A stretch of 64,000 bases of DNA from Synechococcales cyanobacterium GL140_1_metabinner_5_sub (GTDB lineage: Bacteria; Cyanobacteriota; Cyanobacteriia; Cyanobacteriales; Chamaesiphonaceae), in assembly GCA_025359065.1 (NCBI GenBank), contig JANYHM010000040.1, positions 62,001 to 126,000 on the forward strand, in the 5' to 3' direction. The notes beneath the pieces are model-generated. The model searched no databases. It was not told where the DNA came from and was given only the letters and a program-made list of their open reading frames with translations. Position 1 is the first letter of the stretch, and the number at the start of each line of letters is the position of its first letter. Positions 39,799 to 46,294 of the stretch are shown one piece after another. Made by a program: the position numbers and the translations under genes.

Positions 39799-41055
39799 CT
39801 AAGCAAACCACTCTTGGACAGCTTCTTCCTTAGTATTAGTATTCCGGGAAGGAGTCTCACGTTCAAACTTCATGTGAACCGATCGCTGCTGCTCACCGTC
39901 TTTGGCCACTGCTACGATCGGATAGTCGATTAGACCATCTTGGAATGACATGTGGAAACGGAAAGTACCATCTGGATTCAACTTAATTTGTCTGTCGCCG
40001 ATAAATACCGCAGCATTAGGCTCAGTCGCACCATAGACAATCAACTCAGCATCAGCCACCAGCCAGAACTGGCGAGGTTGATGTTGCTCAATGCCAATAC
40101 CCGACATACCCACGCCGGACATGTTGACACCAGAAGCAGTAGGTAAAGCCCAAGCCCCGATACCAGATGGGAACACAAACGAACTGAGAGATTCTTCGGG
40201 AGACTGCTGCATGGAGCCATACAACGAACCAGCAATGCGCATTGCTTCCACCGATTCGGCCAAACCAAAGATTTGCTCGTAAATGGGGTTGCCAGCGGCA
40301 TCGAAAGTAGCTGTGGAGCCAGCACCAGCAGGCTTTTTGCTAGGAGGAACCAGGTTAGCAAAAGTCTTGCCAACGAGGTCTTCTTGCCAATCAATTGTTA
40401 CGAAATGATCTTCTACCCAATCCGAAGGATATACGGGAGGAATGCGGATTTCAGCCGATCGAGCCAAGACCAACCACCGACCATCGGCACAGCGGAAACC
40501 GATATCTAATAGGTACTCTCGATCGCTGACCGGAATTGACAAATACCATTCCCGCGCCATTTCATCTAGCGGATATTCTTGAATGCTGTGAGGGCTTTGT
40601 ATACTCATATTGATGTCGGTGACATCATACAAGCGCAGTGCCAACTGCTGACCGCCCTGAGCGCGCAGCTCTTGCTTGTGCTCAGTGGTAATATCCCAAT
40701 AAGCATAAGCCCACTGCGGATCGCGAGGGAGCAGGACTATTTTGCTTTCGGCGTAACCCCCAGGAATGTCACCAAGTTCGGCATCGGCAATTGCCAAATC
40801 TTCCATGGTGTTGCTGGGGACTGGGGCATCTAGTTCAAATTTTCCTGCTTCCACTGTTAGTGATGCCTCCTGTTGTAATAATGCGTTGCTATTTGAAGTA
40901 TGTAATGCGGAAGATGTGCTGCGCTCAATTTTGAGAATCTCTTCTAGCAACTGGGATTTGCGCATCCGGCTATAGCGAGAAACACCGTAGGTGCTGGCAA
41001 CCCTTCGTAGTTGCCGCAGAGTCATCTCCTCGAATAGGATATTGTCTGTAGACAT
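39799..41055 (-). CDS. DUF4912-domain protein
   Basis: A 418-residue protein. The N-terminal 40 residues (MTLRQLRRVASTYGVSRYSRMRKSQL) look like a SAP/Rho-N helix-extended-loop-helix that may bind nucleic acid. Residues ~100-200 contain the DUF4912 core (IVLLPRDPQWAYAYWDIT). The later part has a Ser/Gly/Met-rich low-complexity stretch and a beta-rich segment (WLVADAELIVYGATEP, AAVFIGDRQIKLNPDGTF). There is no signal peptide. The function is unknown; DUF4912 proteins are widespread in cyanobacteria. Confidence 0.85.
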   Translation of the reverse strand: MSTDNILFEEMTLRQLRRVASTYGVSRYSRMRKSQLLEEILKIERSTSSALHTSNSNALLQQEASLTVEAGKFELDAPVPSNTMEDLAIADAELGDIPGGYAESKIVLLPRDPQWAYAYWDITTEHKQELRAQGGQQLALRLYDVTDINMSIQSPHSIQEYPLDEMAREWYLSIPVSDREYLLDIGFRCADGRWLVLARSAEIRIPPVYPSDWVEDHFVTIDWQEDLVGKTFANLVPPSKKPAGAGSTATFDAAGNPIYEQIFGLAESVEAMRIAGSLYGSMQQSPEESLSSFVFPSGIGAWALPTASGVNMSGVGMSGIGIEQHQPRQFWLVADAELIVYGATEPNAAVFIGDRQIKLNPDGTFRFHMSFQDGLIDYPIVAVAKDGEQQRSVHMKFERETPSRNTNTKEEAVQEWFA

Positions 41056-41267: not shown

Positions 41268-42605
41268 CTATACGCCCAAGAACTTTCCTAAGATCCCCGG
41301 CACCGGCAAGAAAATTAATACGATAATTGCGAGCAGGCACATTCCCCAGGCATCGCGCCGAATGTCGATTTCAGTAACATCATTGAGAGTGGGATCCGAG
41401 ATGGTGGGGAAAAACATCAGCAGCATCGCAAAAATCAAACTGCCAGTGTTGCCCGTTAGGCGCAATTGCAAAAAGCCCAACATAATGAGAATGATTTTGG
41501 CAATTTGGCCAATGGTAATGCTGCCACGCACTCCATACATGGCATGAACCACATAACCGCCATCAAAGCGCTTAAAGGGCAGCATGTTAATGGCCATCAT
41601 CAAAAAGCCTAAATAGGCCGCCGTGGCCACTGGATGGAGCTGGATTGCGGTGTTCGTGCTGAAATCTTGCCCCATGGCTAACTTACTCAGACCAGTTAAA
41701 AACAGCGAAAAGCGCGGATCACAAGAAGCAAAATTCAAAATTCCTGATTCTGTGGTCGCTGTTACCACTGTGGAATGTTGCAATCCCCAAAACAAACCAG
41801 CGCTAGCAATCACCAAATTGACCATCAGCGAACCAAAACCTAGATCAAACAAAACTCGCCGATCGGGGATAGGTGCCCGTAACTGCAACAGAGTACCGCA
41901 GGTGCCCGGGAAAAACGGCAGAGGCACGCAGTACAGCAAACCACTAGCAATTCTACGCCAGCGACAGATCCAATACTTCACCACATCTTTGCTGCTCAGC
42001 ACCGCCAACACGGTTAAGGCATAAAGCCACCCCCGTGGCTCCATCATGTTTTGTTGAAGCTGCTCGGGCTTCACCCCATTTAACAACGCCCCGTACTGAC
42101 TAGTAGTACCCCAGGCCAAAGCCCAGCTCAGACCAGCAATCATGTAATTCATAAAGCTAGGGCGCGAATTCTTATTCTTAATGACATCGGGCACCAAGAC
42201 GAAAAAAGGTCGATCGCTCAACCCGGACTGAAACAACACAAAAAATTTGTCAGCAAAGCGCTCTGAAATATTGTCTTTGACTGTTTGATAGGCTTCCCCA
42301 GCCTCAGTGCGTAATCGCCCTCGGCACACCACTCCTTGGGGGCGATACTCGATCGACTCCAAAAAATACACCGACCAAGGGAAACATTCACGCAAGAGAG
42401 CTTCTTCTTCGACTGAAATTGATCGCAGTGGTGCTGCCTCTTTTGGCTGTGAAACAACTTCCGCTTCTAGCGTAGAGCCTGTTAAAGGTAGAACAGACTG
42501 ATTTATGCGTAGCCAGCGAGATATTTGCGCTGATCGTCGGATAGTCAGGCTCAGCAACCAGTAGGCAATCATGCCTGATAAAATTAGGACAATCCACTTT
42601 TCCAT
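41268..42605 (-). CDS. Site-2-protease-like (M50/EGY) protein lacking the zinc motif
   Basis: A 445-residue membrane protein aligned by eye with the EGY/S2P family: SPIP-like LRAPIPDRRVLFDLG, GILNFASCDPRFSLFL, LHPVATAAYLGFL and MLPFKRFDGGYVVHAMYG (the DG motif). The usual HExGH is replaced by KDVVK (41976-41990), so both zinc histidines and the catalytic Glu are lost; it should be an inactive protease. The start at 42605 is preferred over 42674. It is divergent from the MBL gene. A role as a pseudoprotease or chaperone, as proposed for plant EGY3, is inference. Confidence 0.88.
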   Translation of the reverse strand: MEKWIVLILSGMIAYWLLSLTIRRSAQISRWLRINQSVLPLTGSTLEAEVVSQPKEAAPLRSISVEEEALLRECFPWSVYFLESIEYRPQGVVCRGRLRTEAGEAYQTVKDNISERFADKFFVLFQSGLSDRPFFVLVPDVIKNKNSRPSFMNYMIAGLSWALAWGTTSQYGALLNGVKPEQLQQNMMEPRGWLYALTVLAVLSSKDVVKYWICRWRRIASGLLYCVPLPFFPGTCGTLLQLRAPIPDRRVLFDLGFGSLMVNLVIASAGLFWGLQHSTVVTATTESGILNFASCDPRFSLFLTGLSKLAMGQDFSTNTAIQLHPVATAAYLGFLMMAINMLPFKRFDGGYVVHAMYGVRGSITIGQIAKIILIMLGFLQLRLTGNTGSLIFAMLLMFFPTISDPTLNDVTEIDIRRDAWGMCLLAIIVLIFLPVPGILGKFLGV

Positions 42606-42687
42606 GAACTCATTAATTCCTTTGCTTTTGTCTCCGCTGGCACAAGCGAATGAGCACAGGATGGAATACCACATTATATTTGATATT

Positions 42688-43356
42688 ATGCCGAACCCAC
42701 CGGAAACCTCTCAAGAAAACCAGCAAGGGCGAGAAAAAGCACCAAATTTAGTACTACAAAACGTCTTTGCTTTTGCCCCAAATCGAGATACCTTGGGCGG
42801 TACATCCTACCTTATTGTAAGTAATTGTGGTGTTGATCAACCCCAAAACATTTTAATTGATGCGCCAGCTTGGAATCAGACCAATCGAGAATTTATGGCC
42901 AGTCAAGGTGGTATTTACTGCGCGATCGCCACTCACCGAGGCGGATTGGGTCGAATGGCCACTATCGCCAAAGAGTTGGCTTGCCAGGTGATTATTCAAG
43001 AACAAGAAGCTTACCTATTACCAGATACGCCAAAAACTACCTATCACCAAGCCTATCAGATCACTTTAGCGGCAGCAGAGGAGCCTCTGCAAGTTGTCTG
43101 GACTCCTGGCCATTCACCTGGTTCTGCCTGTGTTTACTACGGGGGCATGATGTTCACTGGCAGACATCTATTACCTGATCGACAGATGAATCCTCAACCA
43201 TTCCAAACTGCTAAGACTTTTCATTGGCCCAGGCAACTGCGGAGTGTGGCCAAGCTGCAAGAGCTGTTTCCTCAAGTGCAGTATATGTTACCCGGAGCTA
43301 GTAGTGGCCTGTTGCGCGGTCAAGGGTATATTGATATGGCCGATTCTGTGTGGTAG
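42688..43356 (+). CDS. Metallo-beta-lactamase-fold protein with degenerate metal site
   Basis: A 222-residue MBL-fold protein: SYLIVSN and ILIDAPAW correspond to the first strands, VVWTPGHSPGSACVYY carries the later His, and FTGRHLLPD the Asp region. The usual HxHxDH is replaced by ATHRGGLGRM, so most ligands of the first metal are absent. The start at 42688 is chosen because upstream codons lie within the opposing gene and are unconserved. Function is unknown; related cyanobacterial proteins are annotated only as MBL-fold hydrolases. Confidence 0.8.
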   Translation: MPNPPETSQENQQGREKAPNLVLQNVFAFAPNRDTLGGTSYLIVSNCGVDQPQNILIDAPAWNQTNREFMASQGGIYCAIATHRGGLGRMATIAKELACQVIIQEQEAYLLPDTPKTTYHQAYQITLAAAEEPLQVVWTPGHSPGSACVYYGGMMFTGRHLLPDRQMNPQPFQTAKTFHWPRQLRSVAKLQELFPQVQYMLPGASSGLLRGQGYIDMADSVW

Positions 43357-44049: not shown

Positions 44050-44212
44050 TACTCGCACTCAAATATTTTCCACTTCAGCCGAATGACGGCACCAGCAAAA
44101 AGTGTTTGAATTAGCAACAGTGCTTTTGGCGGATATCTCTGAAGGTAGGTGTTGCGTAAGATTGAAGGTAGCTAAAACAATCTCCCATTCAATCTTGTCC
44201 TTGACTACACCC

Positions 44213-46294
44213 ATGAACGACAACTTTTCTAACCCCAGTAACTTTTCTAACCCAGTACTAGATTCACTGCAAAACGTAGATAGCCTTTTAGGAATTAATG
44301 CTGTTAAAGATCTGGGTAAAGGTTCATTGGGTGCGGCATTAGTAGAGACAAGTGAAGTAGATAATTTAATAGCTACCCCACCAGTTGGTAGCGTATTTAA
44401 AGCTCCTTTGGCAGCCGGGTATTCCGATCTTAGCAGCCGCAAAGGCGCTGATATTAGCGGCAGTAATGGTACTATAAACCCTTTTGCAGCCATGGATGGA
44501 GTGTTTACTGTAGGCAATGGCGGCTTACTGTCGATCGATGTATTGGCAGATAACGGAGCTTATCAAGGACAGCTTGGAGTATTTAGCCTTACCGGCATGG
44601 AAAACTTCCGGCTGGGTTCAGCAGAGTTCATGATAGAAGCAGCTCGCAGAGCGATCGATGGCAATGGTGAAGGTTACTTGCTATTTGATGATGCCACCGA
44701 AGATGCCCGGTTTAACTCTCAGCTTGGTGAGCGAGATTACAATGGCGGTAGCTATAACGGAGTTAAGACAGTAGGCTTTGAAGCCGGTGAAAAAGTCGCA
44801 TTGATTTTGGTACCCAATAGCAGCTTAGAGAGCGTGGCTGATGGCAATTTCCAAGGCTCTAACCGTCCGCTATTTTCTATGTCTGCTGCCAACGGTGCCA
44901 CACAGTTTGCCAAGGTCGGCACCAATGTTTTTGGTTGGGAAGATATAGCTCTTAAAGGTGGCCGCAGCAATTTTTCTGACGCTGACTACAACGATATCGT
45001 GATTAAAGTCAGCGGTGCCACTGGTCAAGCCACTGAGCTGAGTCAAGTTATGAAGGCCGATCGGAACTGGCTGCAAACTGAATCGGCTCAAAATATTCTG
45101 GCTTTTTCTAACAAGGTAAATGCGGTGTTGGGCTGGAACCAAGCAGCTCTAGAGGCCATTAAAACCGATAAGACAAATCCACCGATCGCCTCTCGCAATT
45201 TGGCAATTTTAGAAACGGCGGTATTTGATGCAGTCAATGGACTCACTGCTTTTTATGATGCCTATAAATTTGATAACGGCATCAATCCTGATGCTTCGGT
45301 AGAAGCTGCCGCTTCCCAGGCTGCCTATCGGGTGCTTACGGAGCTGTATCCCACCCAAAAAGCCACTTTTGATGGCATCCTCAATGGCTATTTGCAAGAT
45401 TTACCAGCAGGAGATTTTGTTACTAAAGGTTTGGCCTATGGTAAAGCAGTAGCTGAAGCCGCCTTAGCTTCTCGCACCAACGATGGCTCTAAAACCGTAG
45501 TGCCTTACACTGCCAGCACCGAAATCGGTAAGTGGCAGCCTACTGGCTCGGTAACTTCTCCCTTGCTGCCCCAATGGGGTAAGGTTACGCCTTTTGCCTT
45601 AGAAAGTAGCAGCCAGTTTCGCCCAGATGCTCCACCAGCTCTTACTAGCACCGAGTATGCTAAAGACTTTAACCTCACCAAAGACCTGGGTAGCTTAAAC
45701 AGCACTACTCGTACTGCTGACCAAACCGAAATTGCCAAGTTTTGGGCAGATGGTGGCGGTACTTATACTCCACCCGGTCACTGGAACAGCATTGCCACTC
45801 AGCTTTTGGGCGAAAGCAACGCTTCTTTGGTAGAAAGTGCTCATACCTTGGGAGTTTTAAGTATTGCCTTAGCTGATGCTGCGATCGCCTGTTGGGATGC
45901 CAAATATACCTTCAATACTTGGCGACCTGTCACTGCCATTAAGCAAGCCGCCTTAGATGGTAATGATGCTACTACTGCGGATGCTACTTGGCAGTCATTA
46001 ATTGCTACTCCACCTTTCCCCGAATACACTTCTGGCCATAGTACATTTAGTTCTACTGCTGCAACTGTCCTGACAGAATTGATCGGCGACAATGTGAACT
46101 TTACCACTTCTTCGATCGGCTTACCGGGTGTAACTCGCAGTTTTACTAGCTTTCAGCAAGCTGCCCAAGAAGCGGGCATCAGCCGCATTTACGGTGGTAT
46201 TCATTTCTTATCGGCTAACATTAGCGGTTTAGAATGTGGTGAACAGATTGGGGAATATGTAATTACCAACTTCATGCAGAGCAAAACTGCTTAA
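44213..46294 (+). CDS. DUF4114 / vanadium-dependent haloperoxidase-type protein
   Basis: A 693-residue protein. Residues ~60-270 contain a DUF4114-like domain with acidic, potentially Ca2+-binding loops (NFSDADYNDIVIKV). The C-terminal half is a PAP2/vanadium haloperoxidase domain with CWDAKYTFNTWRP (Lys and Arg), EYTSGHST (Ser-Gly-His) and RIYGGIHF (Arg and His) as vanadate ligands. It should oxidise halides with peroxide or act as a phosphatase. No N-terminal signal peptide is visible; DUF4114 proteins in cyanobacteria are often exported by C-terminal signals. The ATG at 44213 is preferred over 44102. Confidence 0.85.
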   Translation: MNDNFSNPSNFSNPVLDSLQNVDSLLGINAVKDLGKGSLGAALVETSEVDNLIATPPVGSVFKAPLAAGYSDLSSRKGADISGSNGTINPFAAMDGVFTVGNGGLLSIDVLADNGAYQGQLGVFSLTGMENFRLGSAEFMIEAARRAIDGNGEGYLLFDDATEDARFNSQLGERDYNGGSYNGVKTVGFEAGEKVALILVPNSSLESVADGNFQGSNRPLFSMSAANGATQFAKVGTNVFGWEDIALKGGRSNFSDADYNDIVIKVSGATGQATELSQVMKADRNWLQTESAQNILAFSNKVNAVLGWNQAALEAIKTDKTNPPIASRNLAILETAVFDAVNGLTAFYDAYKFDNGINPDASVEAAASQAAYRVLTELYPTQKATFDGILNGYLQDLPAGDFVTKGLAYGKAVAEAALASRTNDGSKTVVPYTASTEIGKWQPTGSVTSPLLPQWGKVTPFALESSSQFRPDAPPALTSTEYAKDFNLTKDLGSLNSTTRTADQTEIAKFWADGGGTYTPPGHWNSIATQLLGESNASLVESAHTLGVLSIALADAAIACWDAKYTFNTWRPVTAIKQAALDGNDATTADATWQSLIATPPFPEYTSGHSTFSSTAATVLTELIGDNVNFTTSSIGLPGVTRSFTSFQQAAQEAGISRIYGGIHFLSANISGLECGEQIGEYVITNFMQSKTA

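Follow-up and report, generated by a model that had tools for sequence, protein, structure and literature searches.

The window, by which we mean the whole 64,000-nucleotide stretch of DNA that was analysed, comes from a 3.92 Mb assembly in 121 contigs of the cyanobacterial family Chamaesiphonaceae. On its minus strand (41268..42605) lies a gene for a membrane protein of 445 amino acids with a predicted site-2 protease (S2P) fold. The stop codon occupies 41268-41270 and the likely start is the methionine at 42605. The full minus-strand open reading frame (ORF) covers 41268-42674 and encodes 468 amino acids, although relatives, which begin at the MEKW/MWLS position corresponding to M 42605, make the ATG at 42674 an unlikely start. 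We designate the orthologue group of this gene group A and its intact S2P paralogue group as group B.

At 41976..41990 the minus-strand codons, read from 41990 to 41976, are AAA GAT GTG GTG AAG, which encode K206-D207-V208-V209-K210 (residues numbered from M 42605). BLAST aligns this KDVVK onto the HELGH of intact relatives, so that both zinc-binding histidines and the catalytic glutamate are gone. The third zinc ligand position is kept in F347-D348-G349-G350 (41556..41567, minus strand), which is aligned to the LDGG of relatives. A sequence-only reading of this DNA had placed KDVVK in the position of HExxH and described the DG landmark as retained; the first claim is borne out to the base by codon reading and BLAST alignment, and the second agrees with the alignment. 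The same reading had looked to a true HExxH elsewhere in the protein as evidence against itself. A scan of the 468-aa ORF found no HE..H anywhere, which rules out a second HExxH, and the only histidines from the likely start onwards are at residues 277, 324 and 354. In the sister genome (G001) the orthologue is 89% identical and has the same KDVVK.

The window protein scored 24.8 bits against Pfam PF02163, below the curated cut-off of 27.2, and a Chamaesiphon orthologue (28.5) and an intact orthologue (84.5) scored above it. NCBIfam gave no match for the window protein and none near cut-off for its relatives. Hydropathy scanning and alignment also show that an N-terminal stretch carrying a further predicted transmembrane helix is missing from the window genus; this stretch is present in Chamaesiphon and most intact orthologues, and a few intact orthologues are short as well (e.g. 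L025/L048).

Upstream, an 82-bp intergenic stretch (42606..42687), a putative shared promoter region, separates the gene from a divergent plus-strand neighbour at 42688..43356 that encodes a protein of the metallo-beta-lactamase (MBL) fold. The usual metallo-beta-lactamase motifs are HxHxDH and GD. In the window neighbour they are replaced by THRGGLGR and GRH, respectively, and among aligned copies THRGxIG occurs in nearly all (Arg 100%, His 97%) and GRH in 100%. This family was assigned to the fold because its profile matched MBL-fold proteins of known structure (best E 5e-5) and because NCBIfam returned a match below its cut-off; Pfam gave no match for the neighbour. It is a candidate pseudo-hydrolase family. 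Across cyanobacteria, 129 distinct group A loci have at least 900 nt of DNA upstream; 114 of these carry a divergent MBL-fold gene next to group A, and the remaining 15 have none within the available upstream DNA. Since group A often loses its zinc site and the neighbour has lost its metal motif throughout, the two would form a candidate functional unit. The downstream neighbour (39799..41055, minus strand), a protein with DUF4912 and Rho_N domains, is shared by some Chamaesiphonaceae loci only, having been found near group A in L040, L042, L044, L045 and L061 and in no other named locus. Further along the plus strand (44102-46294), the window encodes a PAP2 / vanadium-chloroperoxidase-like protein with an N-terminal DUF4114.

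Loss of the zinc motif in Chamaesiphonaceae and beyond

A copy was called lost on the basis of the three motif columns together with the DGG aspartate. The group A motif is lost in 11/11 examined genomes of Chamaesiphonaceae, which comprise Chamaesiphon and its sister genus. The KDVVK form occurs only in the window genus, represented by two genomes (the window genome and G001), and the nine Chamaesiphon genomes have RDxGR (eight genomes) or HDLGR (one genome). KDVVK is thus not an isolated error, given its presence in G001 and the related forms in Chamaesiphon, and these copies together with the other lost orthologues rule out a loss private to the window genome. Most other families keep HExxH in group A.

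At the level of the order, group A was found in 286 of 291 genomes (E <= 1e-75, among the matches listed). These genomes were searched with a DNA pattern representing the intact motif in a group A-type context, and with the reversed pattern as a control. The pattern matched 241/291 genomes, among the matches listed, and the reversed control matched none. Four of the 50 genomes with no pattern match have no group A, and the copies of the other 46 were read singly: 39 are lost (14 known beforehand and 25 of the remaining 32) and seven are intact. One further copy (G244) is lost despite a pattern match elsewhere in its genome. The motif is therefore lost in at least 40/286 order-level orthologues, a lower bound because the pattern can match a paralogue and so hide a lost copy, as in G244. 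Roughly 86% of the group A copies of the order show no loss, most of them judged by the pattern alone, which suggests that catalysis may matter in most lineages.

Further samples consisted of a set of 60 relatives and a draw of 146 genomes across the phylum. Group A was detected in 60 of the 146 (E <= 1e-60), and seven of the 60 copies read are lost. The lost forms are diverse, with RELGR, QKFSH, YEVGH, HELGS, HELSQ, HEFAR, YAVSR, REMVR, HISAH, HVSVH, GELSH, RELSH and KELCH in the order and HKFSQ, RELAN and REVGQ elsewhere in the phylum. After one fragment (L123 of G058) was dropped, a step that also preceded tree building, 150 readable distinct group A sequences were available, 103 intact and 47 lost, a ratio that is not a frequency because lost lineages were sampled deliberately. 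The sequence-only reading had suggested that the KDVVK form might define an orthologous pseudoprotease group. The group is real, and the proposal was drawn too small: the loss is family-wide with changing residues, and recurs in unrelated lineages. No publication on motif loss in cyanobacterial S2Ps was found within the openly available literature and the terms tried.

Two observations concern single genomes. Genomes G344 and G353, whose size of 1.4-1.5 Mb suggests reduced symbionts, contain group A and match the intact-motif pattern. At L160 (G156), a profile search recovered a group A frame with one in-frame TAA and an intact motif.

Repeated losses and selection on the lost copies

Phylogenetic trees were built from sets that leave out near-duplicates. 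A tree of 125 rows, built with the motif columns removed and with group B as its root, requires 18 changes of the lost/intact label, of which at least 11 are forced by strongly supported (starred) branches. A more careful tree of 80 rows, from which the long rows of the window, L172 and L117, several other lost lineages and many intact rows were left out, requires 15 changes (14-15 across bootstraps), at least nine of them forced. Such counts do not by themselves separate gain from loss. The changes are read as losses because group B and most of group A share HExxH, and a repeated regain of three residues is implausible. Group A has therefore lost its motif independently at least 9-11 times on strongly supported branches, and 15-18 times by parsimony. 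Both trees rule out a single inherited loss. In the genus f2/g108, copies with and without the motif occupy adjacent short branches.

Mapped on the tree, the first histidine changes 18 times, the glutamate six times and the second histidine 14 times, and 19 of 488 columns, including both glycines of DGG, never change. The first step varies by lineage, with only the glutamate, only the first histidine or only the second histidine lost. For most changed codons one base change from His or Glu suffices, so the recurrent Arg, Tyr, Gln and Asn are explicable by mutational access alone, and no convergent design with two basic residues need be invoked. The window branch is very long (2.56 vs a median of 0.43 for end branches), so that this copy may have acquired a separate function through drift.

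Selection was estimated as dN/dS by the Nei-Gojobori method. The window gene and its G001 orthologue gave 0.077 (dS 0.72). The range was 0.069-0.265 for eleven further pairs, each within a lost clade, with the two highest values (0.195 and 0.265) both from the f2/g108 loss, and 0.091-0.221 for eight intact pairs. The group B genes of the window/G001 pair gave 0.040. As its value is like that of intact relatives, the window gene is being kept rather than decaying. Column conservation was also compared: 85 columns reach a fixation of at least 95% among 86 intact proteins, and 69 of them retain an identity of at least 85% across 22 representatives of lost lineages, a comparison that is circular for the three motif columns and unaffected for the others. 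Columns that loosened besides the motif include G317, G321, P327 and A396 (reference numbering); the N-terminal domain, the P-x-P..GT.G loop after the active-site helix and the DGG/RD..G elements stay fixed. The window protein thus lacks the catalytic residues and is under purifying selection, as would be expected of a pseudoprotease.

Fold, intact paralogue and known S2Ps

An AlphaFold2 model of the window protein was generated from a 31-row alignment (mean pLDDT 76.7). Together with column conservation, the model predicts a soluble N-terminal domain at residues ~61-142 (42180..42425, minus strand) with a beta-beta-alpha-beta-beta order, and the rest of the model is a helical transmembrane part. 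The best PDB match of the model was the M. jannaschii S2P (3b4r; Z 9.2, 185 aligned residues, rmsd 5.5), followed by SpoIVFB (8vjm; Z 8.6, 182 aligned, rmsd 5.5), and Foldseek gave an E of 0.008 for the fold match. The model of an intact orthologue has a similar order of elements. A PDB sequence search with the family profile returned nothing convincing (best E 0.77). At these modest scores the model lends support to an S2P transmembrane fold for the window protein, the core of which it would have in common with the archaeal S2P and SpoIVFB. Those two are active zinc proteases, whereas the window protein has neither zinc-binding histidine.

Two cysteines of the N-terminal domain are nearly invariant in group A, with C74 present in 119/119 and C94 in 118/119 of the proteins reaching that far, and both are absent from the 5/5 group B proteins aligned. 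They could form a disulfide or a redox site. One copy (L204) lacks the N-terminal domain.

The sequence-only reading had proposed a search for an active-type paralogue, and one was found. The group B gene of the window genome (L002/L090) has HEAGH and LDGG and its product is 24% identical to the window protein. Other M50 matches in this genome are an RseP-type protein, a larger M50 protein and a 207-aa protein, all with HELGH. HExxH and DG are intact in 39/39 group B loci read. L087 and L205 are the same gene, so these loci represent 38 distinct genes; the set leaves out the group B gene of G127. Of these 38 intact genes, 31 come from genomes in which group A is lost. No group B gene was found in two Chamaesiphon draft assemblies (G002 and G004), which is a poor fit to an obligate partnership of A and B unless the assemblies are incomplete. 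On contig C57 of G199 (L234) group B seems to be split and rearranged: the C-terminal part precedes the N-terminal part by ~10 kb, and both are on the same strand.

The sequence-only reading had also likened the protein to the EGY proteins of plants. A GNLR signature is reported to be unique to EGY proteins (PMC6131628). GNLR is present in 38/38 group B genes and anywhere in only 2/120 group A proteins, and the window protein, which reads CRGRLR, has none. The EGY label therefore fits group B better than the window protein. Plant EGY3 is described as a conserved S2P relative of the photosynthetic membrane that is predicted to be inactive, and the one pseudoenzyme described in the S2P family is called plant-only (PMC9355673). 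EGY3 resembles the window protein in being a predicted inactive, conserved S2P relative, but the loss in group A is bacterial and recurrent, and group A mostly lacks the EGY signature. Because GNLR marks B rather than A, EGY3 is best seen as an analogue, and the two losses were probably separate events.

A link to a studied protein comes from primers. Four S2P homologues of Synechocystis are given with their primers in PMC4284730. The published slr0643 pair fits inside the group A genes of one genome group (g9), facing and ~126 bp apart, the two primers having 1 + 4 mismatches to G135 and 3 + 6 to G045; an exact search with one sll0862 primer gave 0 hits in 50 genomes. Since the slr0643 primers land inside these genes, group A probably corresponds to the family of Slr0643 from Synechocystis sp. 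PCC 6803, an identification made by primers alone. Slr0643 is reported to be essential for acid acclimation (PMC12014562), probably via SigH (PMC4284730), and the direct substrates and interactors of these S2Ps are called poorly understood (PMC12014562). The g9 copies have an intact HExxH, unlike the window copy.

Possible roles of the vacated fold

The explanation that we favour, with reasonable though far from complete confidence, takes as its basis the computationally established loss, its recurrence, the selection on the protein, the S2P-like fold, the intact paralogue and the neighbour. It holds that the window gene encodes a functional pseudoprotease, an S2P-fold membrane protein selected for binding or scaffolding, and that it belongs to a family, group A, for which catalysis is dispensable. 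With its ligands replaced, the window protein could no longer hold a catalytic zinc in the usual way, and we infer that it does not cut. In Chamaesiphonaceae the vacated site is occupied by K/R, D, K/R and D (H first in one genome), two basic residues and two acidic ones whose charges could cancel in a salt bridge that takes over from zinc. The suggestion of the sequence-only reading, that a cyanobacterial pseudoprotease may bind substrates or regulate an active S2P, is likewise an inference. The conserved job would be the binding of a membrane partner, with cutting as an extra that some lineages dropped, and candidate partners are a substrate-like transmembrane helix, the intact paralogue B or the metal-less MBL-fold neighbour. 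A narrower version, which we hold tentatively as somewhat short of an even chance, would make group A a receptor or adaptor paired with this MBL-fold partner, with lineages discarding an already dispensable active site. Among rhomboid pseudoproteases, iRhoms and Derlins are reported likewise to reuse intramembrane-protease folds for binding membrane clients. Their fold is unrelated to S2P and their chemistry is that of serine proteases, so they offer a precedent for a possible mode of action and are not relatives of group A.

The strongest rival, which we regard as unlikely while giving it appreciable weight, is that group A is an ordinary protease whose cutting was made superfluous by group B in some lineages, where it drifted and is kept only as a structural subunit, e.g. 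in a hetero-oligomer with B. The intact motif in 31/31 distinct group B genes read from lost-A genomes is what such redundancy would predict, and first losses that differ between lineages are what relaxed selection on catalysis would give; yet most lost clades show no weakening of selection across the protein, and two Chamaesiphon assemblies have no B. This rival overlaps with the functional pseudoprotease and differs from it mainly in the partner.

It is very improbable that the site still cuts by a different chemistry, e.g. with D207, which stands in the place of the Glu, and D348 acting as an aspartyl-type dyad. The change of Glu to Asp and the kept DGG aspartate in 11/11 family genomes would suit such a dyad, but each of the two acids has neighbouring Lys/Arg with which it would pair, the Glu is retained or one acid is missing in other lost lineages (QK, YV, YA, HI; N/P for D), and we know of no relative that works in this way. 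A decaying pseudogene or an assembly error, which the long window branch and the lost N-terminal stretch might suggest, is less credible still, as an independent assembly has an intact 445-codon frame at 89% identity with a dN/dS of 0.077, and losses also occur in single-contig genomes (e.g. G019, G047, G055 and G067).

A zinc site is what defines a site-2 protease. Annotation as 'site-2 protease' by family name would be misleading for about one in seven group A copies of the order (at least 40/286). That a bacterial family has been retained through repeated, independent losses of this site, with its intact paralogue serving as an internal control, amounts to a natural experiment on the non-cutting roles of the fold, and it opens a direct test in a laboratory cyanobacterium, namely whether Slr0643 can serve acid acclimation without its active site.
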